A stretch of 64,000 nt of DNA from an uncultured Bacillota bacterium (GCA_947650875.1 CANSXE010000001.1:1-64000); one strand, 5' to 3'; numbered from the stretch's first letter, positions 26,255 through 57,363 are shown. The notes: a model not told the origin generated them from the sequence alone. Made by a program: numbers and translations.

Positions 26255-27229
26255 ATGGAATATCTTATCCCCACCCTGATCGTTATTGTCATTGCCATCG
26301 TTGTCTTTTCCCTGCTGGCCAGCATTGTGCGCATTGTGCCCCAGTCCCGGGCCTACGTCATCACCTGGCTGGGCACCTTCCGCACCGTATGGGGCGCTGG
26401 CGTCCACTTCAAGGTGCCCATTGTGGAGCGCATTGTAAAGAATGTGTCTCTGAAGGAGCAGGTGGTGGATTTCGCCCCCCAGCCCGTCATCACCAAGGAC
26501 AACGTGACCATGCAGATCGACTCGGTGGTCTACTTCCAGATCACCGACCCCAAGCTCTATACCTACGGCATTGAAAACCCCATGTCCGCCATTGAGAACC
26601 TCACCGCCACCACCCTGCGGAACATCATCGGCGACCTGGAGCTGGACCAGACCCTCACCAGCCGGGACCACATCAACACCAAGATGCGGGCCCTGCTGGA
26701 CGAGGCCACCGACCCCTGGGGCATCAAGGTCAACCGGGTGGAGCTGAAAAACATCATGCCTCCCCGGGACATTCAGGAGTCCATGGAGAAGCAGATGCGG
26801 GCCGAGCGGGAGCGCCGGGAGGCCATCCTCCAGGCCGAGGGCCAGAAGCAGTCCCAGATCCTGGTGGCCGAGGGCGAGAAGCAGTCCGCCATCCTCCGGG
26901 CCGACGCCGCCAAGCAGGCGGCCATCCTCCAGGCCGAGGGCGCCAAGCAGGCCAAGATTCTGGAAGCCGAGGCCGAGGCCGAAGCCATTATGAAGGTGCA
27001 GCAGGCCACCGCCGACGCCATCCGGCTCATCAACGAGGCAGCTCCCGGACAGGGTGTGCTCACCATCAAGGCCCTGGAGGCGTTCCAGGCCGCCGCCAAC
27101 GGCAAGGCCACCAAGATCATCATCCCCTCCGAGCTCCAGGGCATCGCCGGCCTGGCCGCCGCCGCCAAGACCGTCTTCGACACTGAGGACCCCAAGGCTA
27201 CCATTACCAAAACTGTGCCGAAGCAGTAA
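26255..27229 (+). CDS. SPFH/Band 7 (paraslipin, QmcA-like) protein
   Basis: IVPQSRAYVITWLGTFRTVWGAGVHFKVPIVERIV, DNVTMQIDSVVYFQITDPKLYTYGIENP, VELKNIMPPRDIQESMEKQMRAERERREAILQAEG. Confidence 0.93.
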   Translation: MEYLIPTLIVIVIAIVVFSLLASIVRIVPQSRAYVITWLGTFRTVWGAGVHFKVPIVERIVKNVSLKEQVVDFAPQPVITKDNVTMQIDSVVYFQITDPKLYTYGIENPMSAIENLTATTLRNIIGDLELDQTLTSRDHINTKMRALLDEATDPWGIKVNRVELKNIMPPRDIQESMEKQMRAERERREAILQAEGQKQSQILVAEGEKQSAILRADAAKQAAILQAEGAKQAKILEAEAEAEAIMKVQQATADAIRLINEAAPGQGVLTIKALEAFQAAANGKATKIIIPSELQGIAGLAAAAKTVFDTEDPKATITKTVPKQ

Positions 27230-27460: not shown

Positions 27461-29113
27461 CTAAAAAATCAATCCATATTTTCGAATTCGGTATTGCAGG
27501 CTCTGGCGGAGGATGCCCAGGGTCTGGGCGGTGCGGGAGATGTTGTAGCCGCAGTGGTCCAGGGCCTGGGCGATGACCTGCTTCTCATAGCCGTCCATAA
27601 GCCCTTGCAGGGTTTCCAGGGAAAAGTCGATGGCCGGGAGGGGGGCAGCGGGCTCGCTGCGGTGTTTCAGCAGGTAGGGGGGCAGGTGGCGCACCTCCAT
27701 CACCTGGGAGTCGGTAACATTCTGGGCATAGTCCAGCACATGGAACAGCTCCCGCACGTTGCCCGGCCAGTGGTAGGCCCGCAGGACGGCGAGGACCTCC
27801 GGGTCAAGCCGGGTAACGGCGTGGACAAACTGGTAGGCGGTGGCCTCCAGGTGGTAGCGGATCAGCTCCTCCAGGTCCTCCAGGTGCTCCCGGAGTGGGG
27901 GGAGTTCAAGCATCACGGTGGACAGCCGATAGAACAGGTCGCGACGGAAGGTGTTTTCCGCCACCGCCTTGAAGGGGTCCTCGTTGCAGGAGGAGATCAC
28001 CCGCACATCCAGCCGAATATCCTGACTGCCCCCCACCCGGCGGAAGGTCTTTTCCTGGAGGACCCGCAGAATCTTGGACTGCATGGCCAGGCTCATGGAG
28101 TTGAGCTCGTCCAGGAACAGGGTGCCCCCGGCGGCCTCCTCCAGGTAGCCCGCCTTGTCCTCGCTGCCGGTGAAGCTGCCCTTTCTGGTGCCGAAGAGAA
28201 GGCTCTCGATGAGGGTCTCCGGGACGGCGGCGCAGTTGATGGCCAGAAACTTCCCGCTCCGGCGGCGGCTGGAGCGGTGGATGCTCTGGGCAAAGATCTC
28301 CTTGCCCGTTCCCGTCTCCCCCACCAGGAGGATGGGGCTGTCCTGAGGGGCCACCCGCCGGGCCAGCTCCACCGCCGAACGCAGTTTGGGACAGCTGCCG
28401 ATCACATTGTCGAAGGTGTAGCCCGAAAAGCTGATTTTTGGCGGCTTGTTCTGGAAGGAGCTGAGGGCTCGGCGGGTGTCCTCCAGCTTTTTGATGTTTT
28501 TCTCCACAAGCTCCGCCGTCTGCTCAAAGACCACCGCCCCCAGCAGCTCCCCCTCCCGGAAGATGGGGTAGGAGGTGTTGGCCGAAGCGATGGGGGCGGT
28601 GCTGAAGTCATTGGCCCGGAAGCTGTCCACCCGGTCGATCACCGGGGCCTGGGTCTGGAGGGCGGTCATGGTGGTGCTGATGGTCTCGTCCAGGTTGTAC
28701 AGGTCCAGCAGGTGCCGCCCCTCTACGCTCACCCCGCTGGGAATGCGGGAGATGCCCCGGCTGGCCCGGTTGAAGTAGACCGCGCAGGCGTTTTTGTCAT
28801 AAATCTGCACCCCGTCGGTGACCTGGTCCAGGGCCCGGGCCAGGAGATAGGGCCGGTTGTCCTCCCGCTTGAGCAGCAGCCAGCGCCCGCCCTCGGGGGC
28901 GGGGAGGAGCTGAAAATGAAAGGTGTTCTCCTCCCAGATCAGTTCCCCGCTGTCCCCCTCCCGGGGCAGGTCAAAGGCGTCCCGGGCCGGCCGCCGGGCG
29001 GCGGCCCAGCTCTCAAAGAGGTCCCGGTACAGGTCCTCCGCTTCCCGGCTGCCCCAGGCCACCCCACAGAAGCAGTCTGAGGGGTCCAGCGTAAACAGAA
29101 TGTCATAGAGCAT
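27461..29113 (-). CDS. Sigma-54-dependent transcriptional activator (PAS + AAA+ + Fis HTH)
   Basis: VGETGTGKEIFAQSIH, GSFTGSEDKAGYLEEAAGGTLFLDELNSM, RRDLFYRLSTVMLELPPLREH, YHWPGNVREL, C-terminal ISRTAQTLGILRQSLQYRIRKYGL; N-terminal PAS-like region. Confidence 0.93.
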   Translation of the reverse strand: MLYDILFTLDPSDCFCGVAWGSREAEDLYRDLFESWAAARRPARDAFDLPREGDSGELIWEENTFHFQLLPAPEGGRWLLLKREDNRPYLLARALDQVTDGVQIYDKNACAVYFNRASRGISRIPSGVSVEGRHLLDLYNLDETISTTMTALQTQAPVIDRVDSFRANDFSTAPIASANTSYPIFREGELLGAVVFEQTAELVEKNIKKLEDTRRALSSFQNKPPKISFSGYTFDNVIGSCPKLRSAVELARRVAPQDSPILLVGETGTGKEIFAQSIHRSSRRRSGKFLAINCAAVPETLIESLLFGTRKGSFTGSEDKAGYLEEAAGGTLFLDELNSMSLAMQSKILRVLQEKTFRRVGGSQDIRLDVRVISSCNEDPFKAVAENTFRRDLFYRLSTVMLELPPLREHLEDLEELIRYHLEATAYQFVHAVTRLDPEVLAVLRAYHWPGNVRELFHVLDYAQNVTDSQVMEVRHLPPYLLKHRSEPAAPLPAIDFSLETLQGLMDGYEKQVIAQALDHCGYNISRTAQTLGILRQSLQYRIRKYGLIF

Positions 29114-29157
29114 GGAAAGCTTCCCCTTTCGCTGTTGTTTCGCCCGCCGGGCGGGAC

Positions 29158-29237
29158 GGACGCATCGTGATGCGTCCCTACAGAGTGCTCAAAACCTCCG
29201 CAGCAGAAGACCCGTAGGGACGCTTCATGAAGCGTCC
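29158..29237. repeat. Pair of REP-like palindromes in inverted orientation
   Basis: GGACGCATCGTGATGCGTCCCTAC (29158-29181) and GTAGGGACGCTTCATGAAGCGTCC (29214-29237). Confidence 0.75.
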
Positions 29238-29307
29238 GCATTAACAAGGCTGATTTCCAAGGCGTCCCTGCCAGTGTACCGGAATCCCGGGCCGCTGTCA
29301 ATCCATA

Positions 29308-29493: not shown

Positions 29494-29510
29494 TTGGCCC
29501 GGCAGTTGCT
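29494..29510 (+). promoter_or_regulatory. Sigma-54 (-24/-12) promoter
   Basis: TTGGCCCGGCAGTTGCT: GG at 29496-7, GC at 29508-9, exact N10 spacing; close to the TTGGCACG-N4-TTGCT consensus. Confidence 0.85.
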
Positions 29511-29575
29511 TTATAAAAAGACAGACTGTAAAGAAAGGAGAGTATGCGGCCCTTTCGCCGCATACGGAGAGAAAC

Positions 29576-31153
29576 ATGAAACATGAGAACAAGCCGATCC
29601 GCTGGGATGTATTCATCCCCTGCTTTGTGGTCATCGGCGGCGCGGCCCTGCTGGGCATCGTCAACAACAGCTGGCTGACCAGCGTGACCTACACCATGTT
29701 CGACTGGTCGCTGAGCACCTTTGGCTGGCTGTACCAGATCGTGGCCATGGTCACCCTGCTGCTGGCCGCCCTGCTGCTGTTCACCAAGGTGGGCAAGATT
29801 CGCTTCGGCGGCCCGGAGGCCAAGGCCAAGCACTCCTTTGGCTCCTGGTTCGCCATGACCCTCACCGGCGGCATCGCCACCGGCCTGATTACCTACGGCG
29901 TCAATGAGGTGCTCATCTACTACGGCAACATCTACGGCGAGCTGGACGGCTACGGCATCACCCCTCTGACCCAGGAGGCGGAGCTGTTCGCCATGGGCCG
30001 CTGCTTCTATAACTGGACCTTCATCCCCTACGCCATGTACGCCCTGTCCGGCGTGCTCATCGCCTATATGTATTTCAACCGCAAAAAACAACTCTCTGTA
30101 GCGGCCTCCCTCACCCCCATCTTTGGGGAGAAGGTGACCCAGGGCATCTGGGTGGTGCTGGTGGACGTGCTGTCCGTACTGGCCATCGCCCTGGGCCTGG
30201 CCTCCTCTCTGGGCGCCGGTCTGGCCCTCATCGGCTCCGGTCTCTACTCCGCCTACGGCGTGGAGCAGGGCCCCATCGTGTGGATGGCCCTCACCGCCAT
30301 TATCACTATCACCTTTACCATCGCCTCGGTCACCGGCATCGACAAGGGCATCAAGTGGCTGGCCGGCCTGACCTCCAAAATCTTCTATGTGCTGCTTATC
30401 CTGCTGTTTGTAATCGGTCCCACCATCTACATCCTGAATATGGCCAATGTGGGCTTGGGCTACTGGCTGGACCGGTTCTGGATGTGGGGCTTCGACCCCT
30501 ACACCGTGGGCGGCTCCGCCCTGGTCACCTGGTGGACCATGTATGACTGGGCCATCTGGATCGCCTACGCCCCCCTGATGGGCATTTTCTTCGCCATCAT
30601 CGCCTACGGCCGCACCGTGCGCCAGTTCCTCATCGTCAACTGGATTCTGCCCGCCTCCTTCGGCTTTGTGTGGTTCTCCGTGTGGGGCTCCACCGCCCTG
30701 GAGTGGCAAAAGAGCGGCAGCGCCGACATCATCTCCGCCATTCAGGCGGGCGGAGCCACCACCGGCCTGTGGGAGTTCCTCAAGAACGTCCCCCTGGGCA
30801 TGATTATCATTCCCGTGATTATCCTGGCCCTGATTGCCGCCTTCTCCACCACGGCGGACACCATGTCCACCACCATCGCCGCCCTGTGCACCAGCGGAGC
30901 CCGCCACGACGAGGAGCCCGCCATCTGGCAGAAAATCGTCTGGGGCGTGTCCATCGGCGTGATCGCCTGCGTCATGGTGGCCTTTGGCGGCGGCGCCCAG
31001 GGCGTGGACGGCGTGAAGTACCTGGCGGCCTGCGGCGGCTTTGTGGTGCTGGTGGTGTTCATCTTCCAGGTGGCGGCCGCCTTCAAGGTGTTCTTCTTCG
31101 ATCCCGAGACCAAGAAGGATATTGTGGACAGTGTGGACCAGATTGAAGCATAA
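29576..31153 (+). CDS. BCCT-family (betaine/carnitine/choline-type) transporter
   Basis: GGIATGLITYGVNEVLIYYG, TWWTMYDWAIWIAYAPLMGIFFAIIAYGRTVRQF, about 12 TM helices. Confidence 0.88.
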   Translation: MKHENKPIRWDVFIPCFVVIGGAALLGIVNNSWLTSVTYTMFDWSLSTFGWLYQIVAMVTLLLAALLLFTKVGKIRFGGPEAKAKHSFGSWFAMTLTGGIATGLITYGVNEVLIYYGNIYGELDGYGITPLTQEAELFAMGRCFYNWTFIPYAMYALSGVLIAYMYFNRKKQLSVAASLTPIFGEKVTQGIWVVLVDVLSVLAIALGLASSLGAGLALIGSGLYSAYGVEQGPIVWMALTAIITITFTIASVTGIDKGIKWLAGLTSKIFYVLLILLFVIGPTIYILNMANVGLGYWLDRFWMWGFDPYTVGGSALVTWWTMYDWAIWIAYAPLMGIFFAIIAYGRTVRQFLIVNWILPASFGFVWFSVWGSTALEWQKSGSADIISAIQAGGATTGLWEFLKNVPLGMIIIPVIILALIAAFSTTADTMSTTIAALCTSGARHDEEPAIWQKIVWGVSIGVIACVMVAFGGGAQGVDGVKYLAACGGFVVLVVFIFQVAAAFKVFFFDPETKKDIVDSVDQIEA

Positions 31154-31168
31154 ACGAGGTGTTTTGAG

Positions 31169-32701
31169 ATGGAAGAGATGAAAACGCTTGTACTGGGCGA
31201 GCCCATCACCCTGGAGGACTTCGTCTCCGTGGCCCGGTTCGGGCGGAAGGTGGCATTTTCCCCGGAATACATAGCCCGTGTAAACCGCTCCCGGGCCCTG
31301 GTGGAGCAGTGGGTGGAGGAGGAGCGGGTGATGTACGGCGTCACCACCGGCTTCGGGGCGCTGTGTACCAAGGCCATCGACAAGGAGGCCACCGCCCAGC
31401 TTCAGGAGAACATCATCCTGTCCCACTCCGTCTCGGTGGGCGAGCCCCTGAGCGTGGAGCGGGTGCGGGGCATTATGCTCATGGTGCTGCAAAACATCGG
31501 CCAGGGCTACAGCGGCGTGCGGATGTGTGTGCTGGAAAAGTACCGGGACTTCCTCAACGCCGGCCTGACCCCCTACGCCCCCGGGGACGGCAGCGTGGGC
31601 TACCTCTCCCCCGAGGCCCACATGGCCCTGGTGCTGCTGGGCCGCGGTAAGGCCTACTACCAGGGTGAGCTGCTGGAAGGCGGGGAAGCCCTGAAACGGG
31701 CCGGGCTGGAGCCCATGGTTCTCTCCTCCAAGGAGGGGCTGGCCCTGGTGTCGGGCACCACCTCCGCCACCGCCATGGCCGCCCTGGCCCTCTATGACAT
31801 GCTCAACGCCGCCAAGTCCGCCGACATCGTGGGGGCCATGTCTCTGGAGGCCATGAAGGGGGTCATCAACGCCTTCGACCCCCGGGTGATGGCTGTCCGG
31901 CCCCACCCCGACCAGCTCAACGCCTCGGAGAATGTCCGCCGGATACTGAAGGGCTCGGGCATCATGGAGAAATACCGGGGCAGCCGGGTGCAGGACGCCC
32001 TGTCCCTGCGGTGCATCCCCCAGCTCCACGGCGCGGCCCGGAAGACCCTGGAGGACGCGAAAAAGACCATCGAGATCGAGATGAACTCCTGCTGTGACAA
32101 CCCCATTATCTGGCCCGAGACGGGCAACGAGGACGTGATTTCCGCCTGCAACGCCGATTCCGCCTATGTGGGCATGGAGATGGACAGCGCCTGTATCGCC
32201 GCCGTGGGGCTGGCCAAGATGTCCGAGCGGCGGAACAACCGCATCGTGGACGGCTCCCTGTCGGGCTACCCCTACTTCTGCATCAAAAACCCGGGGCTGA
32301 ACTCCGGGCTGATGATCCCCCAGTACGTCCAGGCCGGTCTCCTCAACGAGATGCGGATGCTGGCCACCCCCTCCACCATCGACAACACCCCCACCTGCGG
32401 CAACCAGGAGGACTATGTGGCCATGGGGTACAACGCCTGCAAGAAGGCAGGCCCCATGGCGGAGAAGCTGGAGTACATGCTGGCCATCGAGCTGCTCAGC
32501 GTGTATGAGGTGCAGCAGTTTGTGGACCCGGACGTGGCCCGCGCCCCTGCCACAGCGGCGGTGCTGGCCGAGATTGGCAGGACGGTGCCGGTGATGGAGA
32601 AGGACATGTTCCTCCACCCCTACATCGAGTATTTGAAGGACTTTATCCACTCGGGCGGACTGATCCGGGTGGCCGAACAGGTGACAGGAGCGCTGAGCTG
32701 A
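31169..32701 (+). CDS. HAL/PAL-family aromatic amino acid lyase homologue lacking the MIO Ala-Ser-Gly motif; candidate ergothionase/betaine lyase
   Basis: MYGVTTGFGALC, GSVGYLSPEAHMALVLLGRGKAYY (canonical GSVGASGDLAP... shortened by 3 aa), DALSLRCIPQLHGA, TPTCGNQEDYVAMG. Confidence 0.8.
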   Translation: MEEMKTLVLGEPITLEDFVSVARFGRKVAFSPEYIARVNRSRALVEQWVEEERVMYGVTTGFGALCTKAIDKEATAQLQENIILSHSVSVGEPLSVERVRGIMLMVLQNIGQGYSGVRMCVLEKYRDFLNAGLTPYAPGDGSVGYLSPEAHMALVLLGRGKAYYQGELLEGGEALKRAGLEPMVLSSKEGLALVSGTTSATAMAALALYDMLNAAKSADIVGAMSLEAMKGVINAFDPRVMAVRPHPDQLNASENVRRILKGSGIMEKYRGSRVQDALSLRCIPQLHGAARKTLEDAKKTIEIEMNSCCDNPIIWPETGNEDVISACNADSAYVGMEMDSACIAAVGLAKMSERRNNRIVDGSLSGYPYFCIKNPGLNSGLMIPQYVQAGLLNEMRMLATPSTIDNTPTCGNQEDYVAMGYNACKKAGPMAEKLEYMLAIELLSVYEVQQFVDPDVARAPATAAVLAEIGRTVPVMEKDMFLHPYIEYLKDFIHSGGLIRVAEQVTGALS

Positions 32702-32702
32702 T

Positions 32703-32969
32703 ATGAAAAAAGAAGTTGTCCGCGTGGAGATGGACCTGAAAAAGATTTTCCTCACCCCTCCCAACACCCGCCGGGAGCAGATCACCCTGCTGGTGATGAT
32801 GGTGGTCCTCTTTATCATGTTCTTCGGCCCCATCTGCTTCACCGAAATCCATCCGGTGAAGGCCATCCTCCTCTCCTGCCTGCCCGCCCTGTCGGTCTCC
32901 TGGGGGTGGATCGTTCTGCTGCGGTCTCTGTTCCGCAAATCGGAGTTCTGCCAGCAGGTAAAAGATTGA
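32703..32969 (+). CDS. Small (88 aa) two-TM membrane protein
   Basis: Starts 1 bp after the lyase stop; ITLLVMMVVLFIMFFGPICF and ILLSCLPALSVSWGWIVLL hydrophobic segments. Confidence 0.6.
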   Translation: MKKEVVRVEMDLKKIFLTPPNTRREQITLLVMMVVLFIMFFGPICFTEIHPVKAILLSCLPALSVSWGWIVLLRSLFRKSEFCQQVKD

Positions 32970-39262: not shown

Positions 39263-39323
39263 GTAGGGGCGCTTTACAAGGCGTCCGGACATGCGGGACG
39301 GACGCATCGTGATGCGTCTCTAC
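39263..39323. repeat. Pair of REP-like palindromes
   Basis: GTAGGGGCGCTTTACAAGGCGTCC (39263-39286) and GGACGCATCGTGATGCGTCTCTAC (39300-39323). Confidence 0.7.
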
Positions 39324-49151: not shown

Positions 49152-49238
49152 TGATTGCAGGGACGCATCACGATGCGTCCGTCTCGATTTGCGGGGCATT
49201 TGCCGGGGGGCGGCGGACGCTTCATGAAGCGTCCCTAC
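49152..49238. repeat. Composite REP-like unit, copy 1 (~85 bp)
   Basis: GCAGGGACGCATCACGATGCGTCC (49157-49180) + spacer + GGACGCTTCATGAAGCGTCCCTAC (49215-49238), near-identical to 50341-50424. Confidence 0.85.
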
Positions 49239-50340: not shown

Positions 50341-50424
50341 TGATTGCAGGGACGCATCACGATGCGTCCGTCTCGATTTGCGGGGTATTTGTCGGGGGGC
50401 AGACGCTTCATGAAGCGTTCCTAC
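50341..50424. repeat. Composite REP-like unit, copy 2
   Basis: GCAGGGACGCATCACGATGCGTCC (50346-50369) + spacer + AGACGCTTCATGAAGCGTTCCTAC (50401-50424); overlaps the stop codon of the 1598-aa gene. Confidence 0.85.
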
Positions 50425-57231: not shown

Positions 57232-57363
57232 GTAGGGACGCTTCACGAAGCGTCCGTCCTTCCATTGGCACGCTTTATAGGGGCGCAGAGTGCGCCCGCA
57301 GGCGGACAATGTCCGTCCCTGCATAAAATCTGCGAAAGCGGACGCATCGTGATGCGTCCCTAC
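57232..57363. repeat. Cluster of four REP-like palindromes
   Basis: GTAGGGACGCTTCACGAAGCGTCC (57232-57255); ATAGGGGCGCAGAGTGCGCCC (57278-57298); GGCGGACAATGTCCGTCCCTGCA (57301-57323); GGACGCATCGTGATGCGTCCCTAC (57340-57363). Confidence 0.8.

Follow-up and report, generated by a model that had tools for sequence, protein, structure and literature searches.

Histidine ammonia-lyase (HAL, the product of hutH) needs the MIO cofactor, formed from an Ala-Ser-Gly triad, to activate ammonia. Ergothionase, another enzyme of the HAL fold, works without MIO (PMC13405746), and a recent survey found it to be rare in gut microbes, with divergent homologues falling outside the survey's coverage (PMC13405746). 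The ergothionases and the lyases with a GSVGYL loop that are described here are such divergent homologues. In Pseudomonas, a review describes an insertion of five genes between hutU and hutH, and the HutH1 protein is reported to be dispensable for growth on histidine. Here, a locus encoding a HAL-fold lyase without the MIO triad is compared with these systems.

The window, by which is meant the whole stretch of DNA analysed (64,000 nucleotides from an uncultured Bacillota bacterium), carries a conserved operon at 29495-32969 that consists of a sigma-54 promoter, a BCCT-family transporter gene (29576-31153, + strand; 525 aa; PF02028 at 360 bits over residues 12-504, the full length), a HAL-fold lyase gene of the GSVGYL clade (31169-32701, + strand; 510 aa; PF00221 at 544 bits, full length), and a gene for a small membrane protein (32703-32969, + strand; 88 aa, with two hydrophobic stretches predicted to lie in the membrane). 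The coordinates of these three reading frames are exactly those given in the original prediction. The BCCT stop and the lyase start are 15 bp apart, and the 88-aa frame adjoins the lyase closely, at 1 bp from its stop. A profile search matched the 88-aa protein to no Pfam or NCBIfam family; homologues with 49-92% identity are encoded in L115, L036, L116, L117, L040, and L039, in the last of which the gene lies on the opposite strand, adjoining lyases. The order regulator-BCCT-lyase-small protein is kept in L036, L115, L116, and L117 as well as in Clostridium mobile (L040; 36-64% identity), and the gene immediately 5' of this lyase encodes a BCCT ortholog (58-64%) in Bacillus, Alkalihalobacillus, and Clostridium mobile. 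Of the solved structures, the trimethylamine transporter 8zw8 and BetP come nearest in sequence to the transporter of the operon. The protein scores 300 bits where the glycine betaine equivalog requires 650, and its substrate is therefore probably a compound other than glycine betaine; import of a histidine betaine is predicted.

Divergent from the operon lies a gene for a sigma-54-dependent activator (27461-29113, - strand) with a sensor-like N-terminus, an AAA+ domain (PF00158, 210 bits), and a Fis-type HTH (PF02954). Its top NCBIfam match is PrdR-like, under the cut-off of that family. Orthologs (36-86% identity) are found beside the same operon in seven loci (L036, L115, L116, L117, L118, L037, and L040), and the activator is the probable regulator of the BCCT-lyase operon. 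The candidate -24/-12 promoter (TGGCCCGGCAGTTGCT; 29495-29510, + strand) is situated 81 bp 5' of the BCCT start. In the 64-kb window the strict sigma-54 pattern is matched nine times, always on the + strand; because each of 11 related loci has a match to the pattern 74-113 bp 5' of its BCCT or lyase gene, this assignment, made by motif, is considered well founded. A dispersed palindrome, GTAGGGACGCWTCRTGAWGCGTCC, was also observed in the window (29154-29241, 39296-39323, 49157-49238, 50346-50424, and 57232-57363), with 15 matches against 0 expected by chance, mostly as pairs about 60-110 bp apart in a REP/BIME-like arrangement; one such pair lies in the intergenic region that separates the regulator from the BCCT transporter. 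Elsewhere in the window, a 33-bp tandem repeat of 3.9 copies (26822-26950) lies within a Band 7 (SPFH) gene.

The MIO-forming Ala-Ser-Gly had been noted to be missing from the lyase, and this is borne out both in the window protein and in 40 of 40 members of its clade. At 31589-31621 the loop sequence is GSVGYLSPEAH, against GSVGASGDLAPLAH in Pseudomonas HAL, so that A142-S143-G144-D145 (P. putida numbering) is represented by a single Tyr in the GSVGYL motif itself (31589-31606, + strand), a net loss of three residues. Among 159 aligned relatives, 115 have the MIO triad, 40 have the GSVGYL state (a count that takes in GSLGYL and GSVGYI variants), and 4 have the ergothionase-type loop GS[IV]GE[GA]D; rhizobial copies carry GSAGYL. 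The clade has members in Clostridia, Bacillus, Paenibacillus, and Pseudomonas. Because the loop is kept in many relatives from separate genomes, at 96, 95, 83, 77, 63, 62, 58, 51, 41, and 38% identity to the window lyase, it is not the product of a sequencing error or a frameshift. As read from its sequence, then, the window lyase is unable to form MIO. That it might nonetheless be an ordinary histidine ammonia-lyase, acting without MIO or with MIO made elsewhere, would fit the high scores of the clade against NCBIfam hutH and PRK09367, which in some members exceed the cut-off; the window protein, however, falls under both curated cut-offs (scoring 498 bits against a threshold of 539, and 518 against 524), holds no Ala-Ser-Gly to cyclise at residues 142-145, and belongs to a clade whose members share a cluster or genome with an MIO-type HutH, making this reading the hardest of all to credit.

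Loss of the electrophile, together with the reported dispensability of HutH1, could also indicate an inactive paralogue, for example a regulatory protein or a decayed duplicate. This is very improbable given that dN/dS is about 0.05-0.2 against three orthologs, a value indicative of purifying selection, that the base and substrate residues are invariant, that the lyase has its own promoter motif and transporter, and that 47 of the 60 Pseudomonas genomes sampled retain a close relative of the L062 lyase. A pseudogene is ruled out by dN/dS and synteny.

In an alignment with HAL numbering, Tyr53, His83, and Glu414 are invariant throughout the GSVGYL clade, as are Gln277 and Arg283 in all 39 rows having those columns. 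By analogy with HAL, we take these residues to supply the base (Tyr53), the ring-binding pair (His83 and Glu414), and the carboxylate anchor. Two other positions have changed. Tyr280, present in every one of the 115 MIO enzymes, is replaced by Leu in the window lyase, as it is in 36 of the 39 clade members and all 4 ergothionase-type proteins; Phe329, equally invariant in the 115, gives way to Pro, Ala, or Cys in 35 of the 40 clade members. The block DALSLRCIPQ, which had been listed among the kept motifs, is thus itself altered, the canonical enzymes reading DxYSLRC. We interpret these changes as loosened constraint on positions that serve MIO, the substrate frame being retained. An AF2 model of the lyase (pLDDT 92.7) matches HAL 1b8f best (TM 0.93), with ergothionase slightly lower; the model is of a monomer, and its loop block 141-150 has a pLDDT of about 70. 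HAL active sites are built from several subunits.

The same positions bear on the question of whether the substrate could be another aromatic betaine (of tyrosine, phenylalanine, or tryptophan) or a mono- or dimethylated histidine. The range of quaternary amines carried by BCCT transporters is wide, and the Clostridial subclades are diverse: genome G039 alone carries three paralogs (83, 58, and 43% identity to the window lyase), which may have diversified in substrate; the subclade with L027 and L037b retains Tyr280; and residues 195, 329, and 330 differ among subclades, so that substrates may differ as well. Against this, the ring-binding pair of the HAL type (His83 and Glu414) does not vary, and several branches that are separate from one another have hut genes alongside; such a substrate for the window lyase is considered unlikely. 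Beside one GSVGY subclade, similar-looking proteins of 178-181 aa are encoded (L026:1764-2309 and L167:9477-10013), that of L167 without a Pfam match; in L167 an SSF symporter takes the place of the transporter.

Phylogenetically, the 40 GSVGYL proteins form one clade (support 99/96) that survives removal of the loop and the 277-283 block (SH-aLRT 96), and the ergothionase-type rows form a clade of their own (100/100). Aligned with both the Treponema denticola ergothionase and HutH, the window lyase proves far closer to HAL (E ~1e-87) than to ergothionase 6s7j (E 5e-52). A sister genome (G257) carries, as a distinct gene, an ergothionase ortholog (L124:5745-7262) with the loop GSIGEGD, an E value of 3e-183 to T. 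denticola 6s7j, and its own adjoining BCCT and Mo-hydroxylase-type genes. The E values, the separate clades, and this distinct gene rule out the window lyase as a direct ergothionase ortholog, and the ergothionase-like lineage that had been proposed for it is not upheld. Ergothionase-type genes are also present in G269 and Clostridium mobile, both of which carry the window-type operon too, and two separate BCCT-lyase systems within one genome argue for different substrates.

The idea of a second ergothionase-like enzyme, which would convert ergothioneine to thiourocanate and trimethylamine, draws on the shared fold, the lack of MIO, the BCCT neighbour, and the Tyr280 to Leu change common to both types; an AU test in which the ergothionase and GSVGYL clades were held together (p-AU 0.656) rejects neither a sister relationship of the two clades nor a single MIO loss in place of the two independent losses that had been expected. 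By alignment, the catalytic residues of ergothionase may be only partly present: the Tyr53 and Glu411 equivalents are kept in the window lyase, but a Lys of the ergothionase lineage, found within VKTIAFGTIQK in 3 of the 4 members here, is Tyr in all 40 GSVGYL members. Further, the partner urocanases of the clade are canonical: five neighbouring HutU proteins tested scored 987-1020 bits against TIGR01228 and fell under the thiourocanate hydratase cut-off, and no protein exceeded that cut-off in any of the 16 genomes carrying the clade. With genuine ergothionase encoded by a different gene of the same genus, ergothioneine as the substrate of the GSVGYL lyase is doubtful.

Several associations of lyases with Mo-hydroxylase genes were noted. 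Candidate ergothioneine-catabolic clusters of gut-type Clostridia (L124:2039-8931 in G257 and L165:5875-12832 in Clostridium mobile) combine an ergothionase ortholog, a BCCT gene, and Mo-hydroxylase-type (xanthine dehydrogenase-like) genes. In the genome from which the window derives, contig C28 (L001:1471-3084) encodes a HAL-like lyase with the triad Ala-Cys-Gly in place of Ala-Ser-Gly beside a gene for a 2Fe-2S Mo-hydroxylase subunit, and a similar pair is present in G253 (L159). Mutually similar genes that begin like MSTMILTQEQQDMLDGKYGKGTAYAMKIQVAIGE and appear by eye to be aconitase-X-like (L043:1591-4966, L118:305-1519, and L172:7521-8723) stand beside both types of MIO-less lyase.

The strongest clue to the likely substrate is provided by gene neighbourhoods. 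Lyases of the clade occur with hut genes in Bacillus, Alkalihalobacillus, Paenibacillus, Pseudomonas, Rhizobium, and Klebsiella plasmids, the partners being a canonical urocanase, HutI, and often HutC plus a normal MIO-type HutH. In Alkalihalobacillus (L042), hutU-hutI-hutG is followed by a window-type BCCT and lyase on one strand, as one apparent operon, and in Bacillus FJAT-14578 (L041) the BCCT and lyase genes lie just 5' of hutU-hutI-hutG. Elsewhere, the lyase gene is located between an OpuAC-type ABC transporter and either hutU-hutI (Paenibacillus eucommiae, L052, where the transporter is of the glycine-betaine type), the true hutH (Pseudomonas, L062), or hutD-hutC (a Klebsiella conjugative plasmid, with hutU nearby), and on R. 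etli p42e it stands beside a complete hut cluster. HutC, the urocanate-responsive repressor, is encoded next to the lyase in Rhizobium and Burkholderia and close by on the Klebsiella plasmid. A separate MIO-type HutH adjoins the lyase in Pseudomonas and R. etli and is also present in the Bacillus and Alkalihalobacillus genomes; histidine is therefore already served. A urocanase was found in 14 of 16 clade-carrying genomes and, among 20 sampled relatives, in 8. Flanks of about 8 kb contain a BCCT or OpuAC substrate-binding gene at 10 of the 15 clade loci but at none of the 64 MIO-type loci (Fisher p=2e-9, in a test that treats related loci as independent), in agreement with the earlier suggestion that the BCCT partner indicates a quaternary ammonium substrate.

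The conjugative Klebsiella plasmid p4253-2 (L188:458-10331) brings together a GSVGYL lyase, hutU, hutC, hutD, formimidoylglutamate deiminase, and an OpuAC-type ABC transporter. Similar lyase matches were obtained on many further Klebsiella plasmids, and Fusobacterium and Priestia plasmid matches were also noted.

From the genes present, the missing triad, its conservation, the promoter motif, the neighbourhoods, and the phylogeny, we infer with moderate confidence that the lyase is a hercynine trimethylamine-lyase that yields urocanate and trimethylamine, is supplied by BCCT uptake, and feeds the hut pathway. An elimination from a quaternary amine that gives urocanate, in genomes that already have a histidase, points to a histidine betaine, and this reasoning extends to the window because its lyase and transporter are directly related to the two Bacillus proteins (59-62% identity). 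In the proposed mechanism, hercynine (histidine betaine, N-alpha-trimethyl-histidine) would be imported by the BCCT transporter once the sigma-54 activator has turned the operon on, and the lyase would eliminate trimethylamine to form urocanate, which would enter the ordinary hut pathway. With a leaving group as good as trimethylamine, the lyase could dispense with MIO. Tyr56 (HAL Tyr53) is the putative catalytic base, acting at C-beta; the carboxylate would be held by Arg281 and the imidazole by His86 and Glu414, while the conserved Tyr of the shortened loop perhaps makes room for, or contacts, the trimethylammonium group. The notion of an MIO-less betaine lyase with trimethylamine as its natural leaving group, present in the original prediction, is supported, and the residues presumed to hold imidazole and carboxylate are retained; of the two substrates it had named, ergothioneine is disfavoured and hercynine is the better supported, given the canonical urocanase, HutI, and HutC partners and the lack of any thiourocanate hydratase above cut-off in the 16 genomes. 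Weighing against hercynine, no urocanase was found in the window's own genome (an assembly 77% complete), no betaine transporter was seen at 5 of 15 clade loci, some of them on short contigs, and the Erwinia, Rhizobium, and Burkholderia copies accompany an amino-acid-type ABC transporter.

Hercynine is a betaine produced by fungi, actinobacteria, and cyanobacteria (PMC3826126), and no report of a hercynine lyase was found in a full-text search confined to an open-access library. Annotation pipelines label GSVGYL genes as histidine ammonia-lyase, a reaction that they should not manage without MIO. The chances are somewhat better than even that these genes represent a widespread, unrecognised family of hercynine trimethylamine-lyases, borne by gut Clostridia, Bacilli, pseudomonads, rhizobia, and Klebsiella plasmids, that connects a histidine betaine with urocanate and the hut pathway, explaining HutH1 and adding a microbial source of trimethylamine. 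If so, HutH1 would gain a function, a fate for hercynine could be named, and gut bacteria would have a route to trimethylamine beyond choline, carnitine, betaine, and ergothioneine. The HAL fold would also offer a second MIO-less type in which to study how the cofactor became dispensable.

Among described systems, HutH (P. putida 1b8f; T. acidophilum 7tqr) is nearest to the window lyase in both sequence and fold, and the two share Tyr53, His83, Gln277, Arg283, and Glu414; the window lyase lacks the Ala-Ser-Gly-Asp, Tyr280, and Phe329 of HutH, and hence MIO, and, unlike HutH, the GSVGYL lyase is a second, transporter-linked gene beside the true HutH. Ergothionase (T. denticola, 6s7j/6s7q) resembles the window lyase in being MIO-less, in the Leu at position 280, and, in Clostridia, in its BCCT neighbour, but differs in its loop and in keeping Phe329, and it constitutes a separate clade on a long branch with Mo-hydroxylase rather than hut genes as neighbours. 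For Pseudomonas HutH1 (the hutTu-hutXWV-hutH1 module of SBW25), the gene order in L062 (hutU, permease, OpuAC-type ABC transporter, GSVGYL lyase, HutH) agrees with that of the module and puts the GSVGYL lyase in the hutH1 position, an identification made by synteny only. This lyase belongs to the same GSVGYL clade as the window protein (38% identity) and is partnered by an ABC system rather than a BCCT transporter; a HutH1 without MIO would explain why it is dispensable for growth on histidine.
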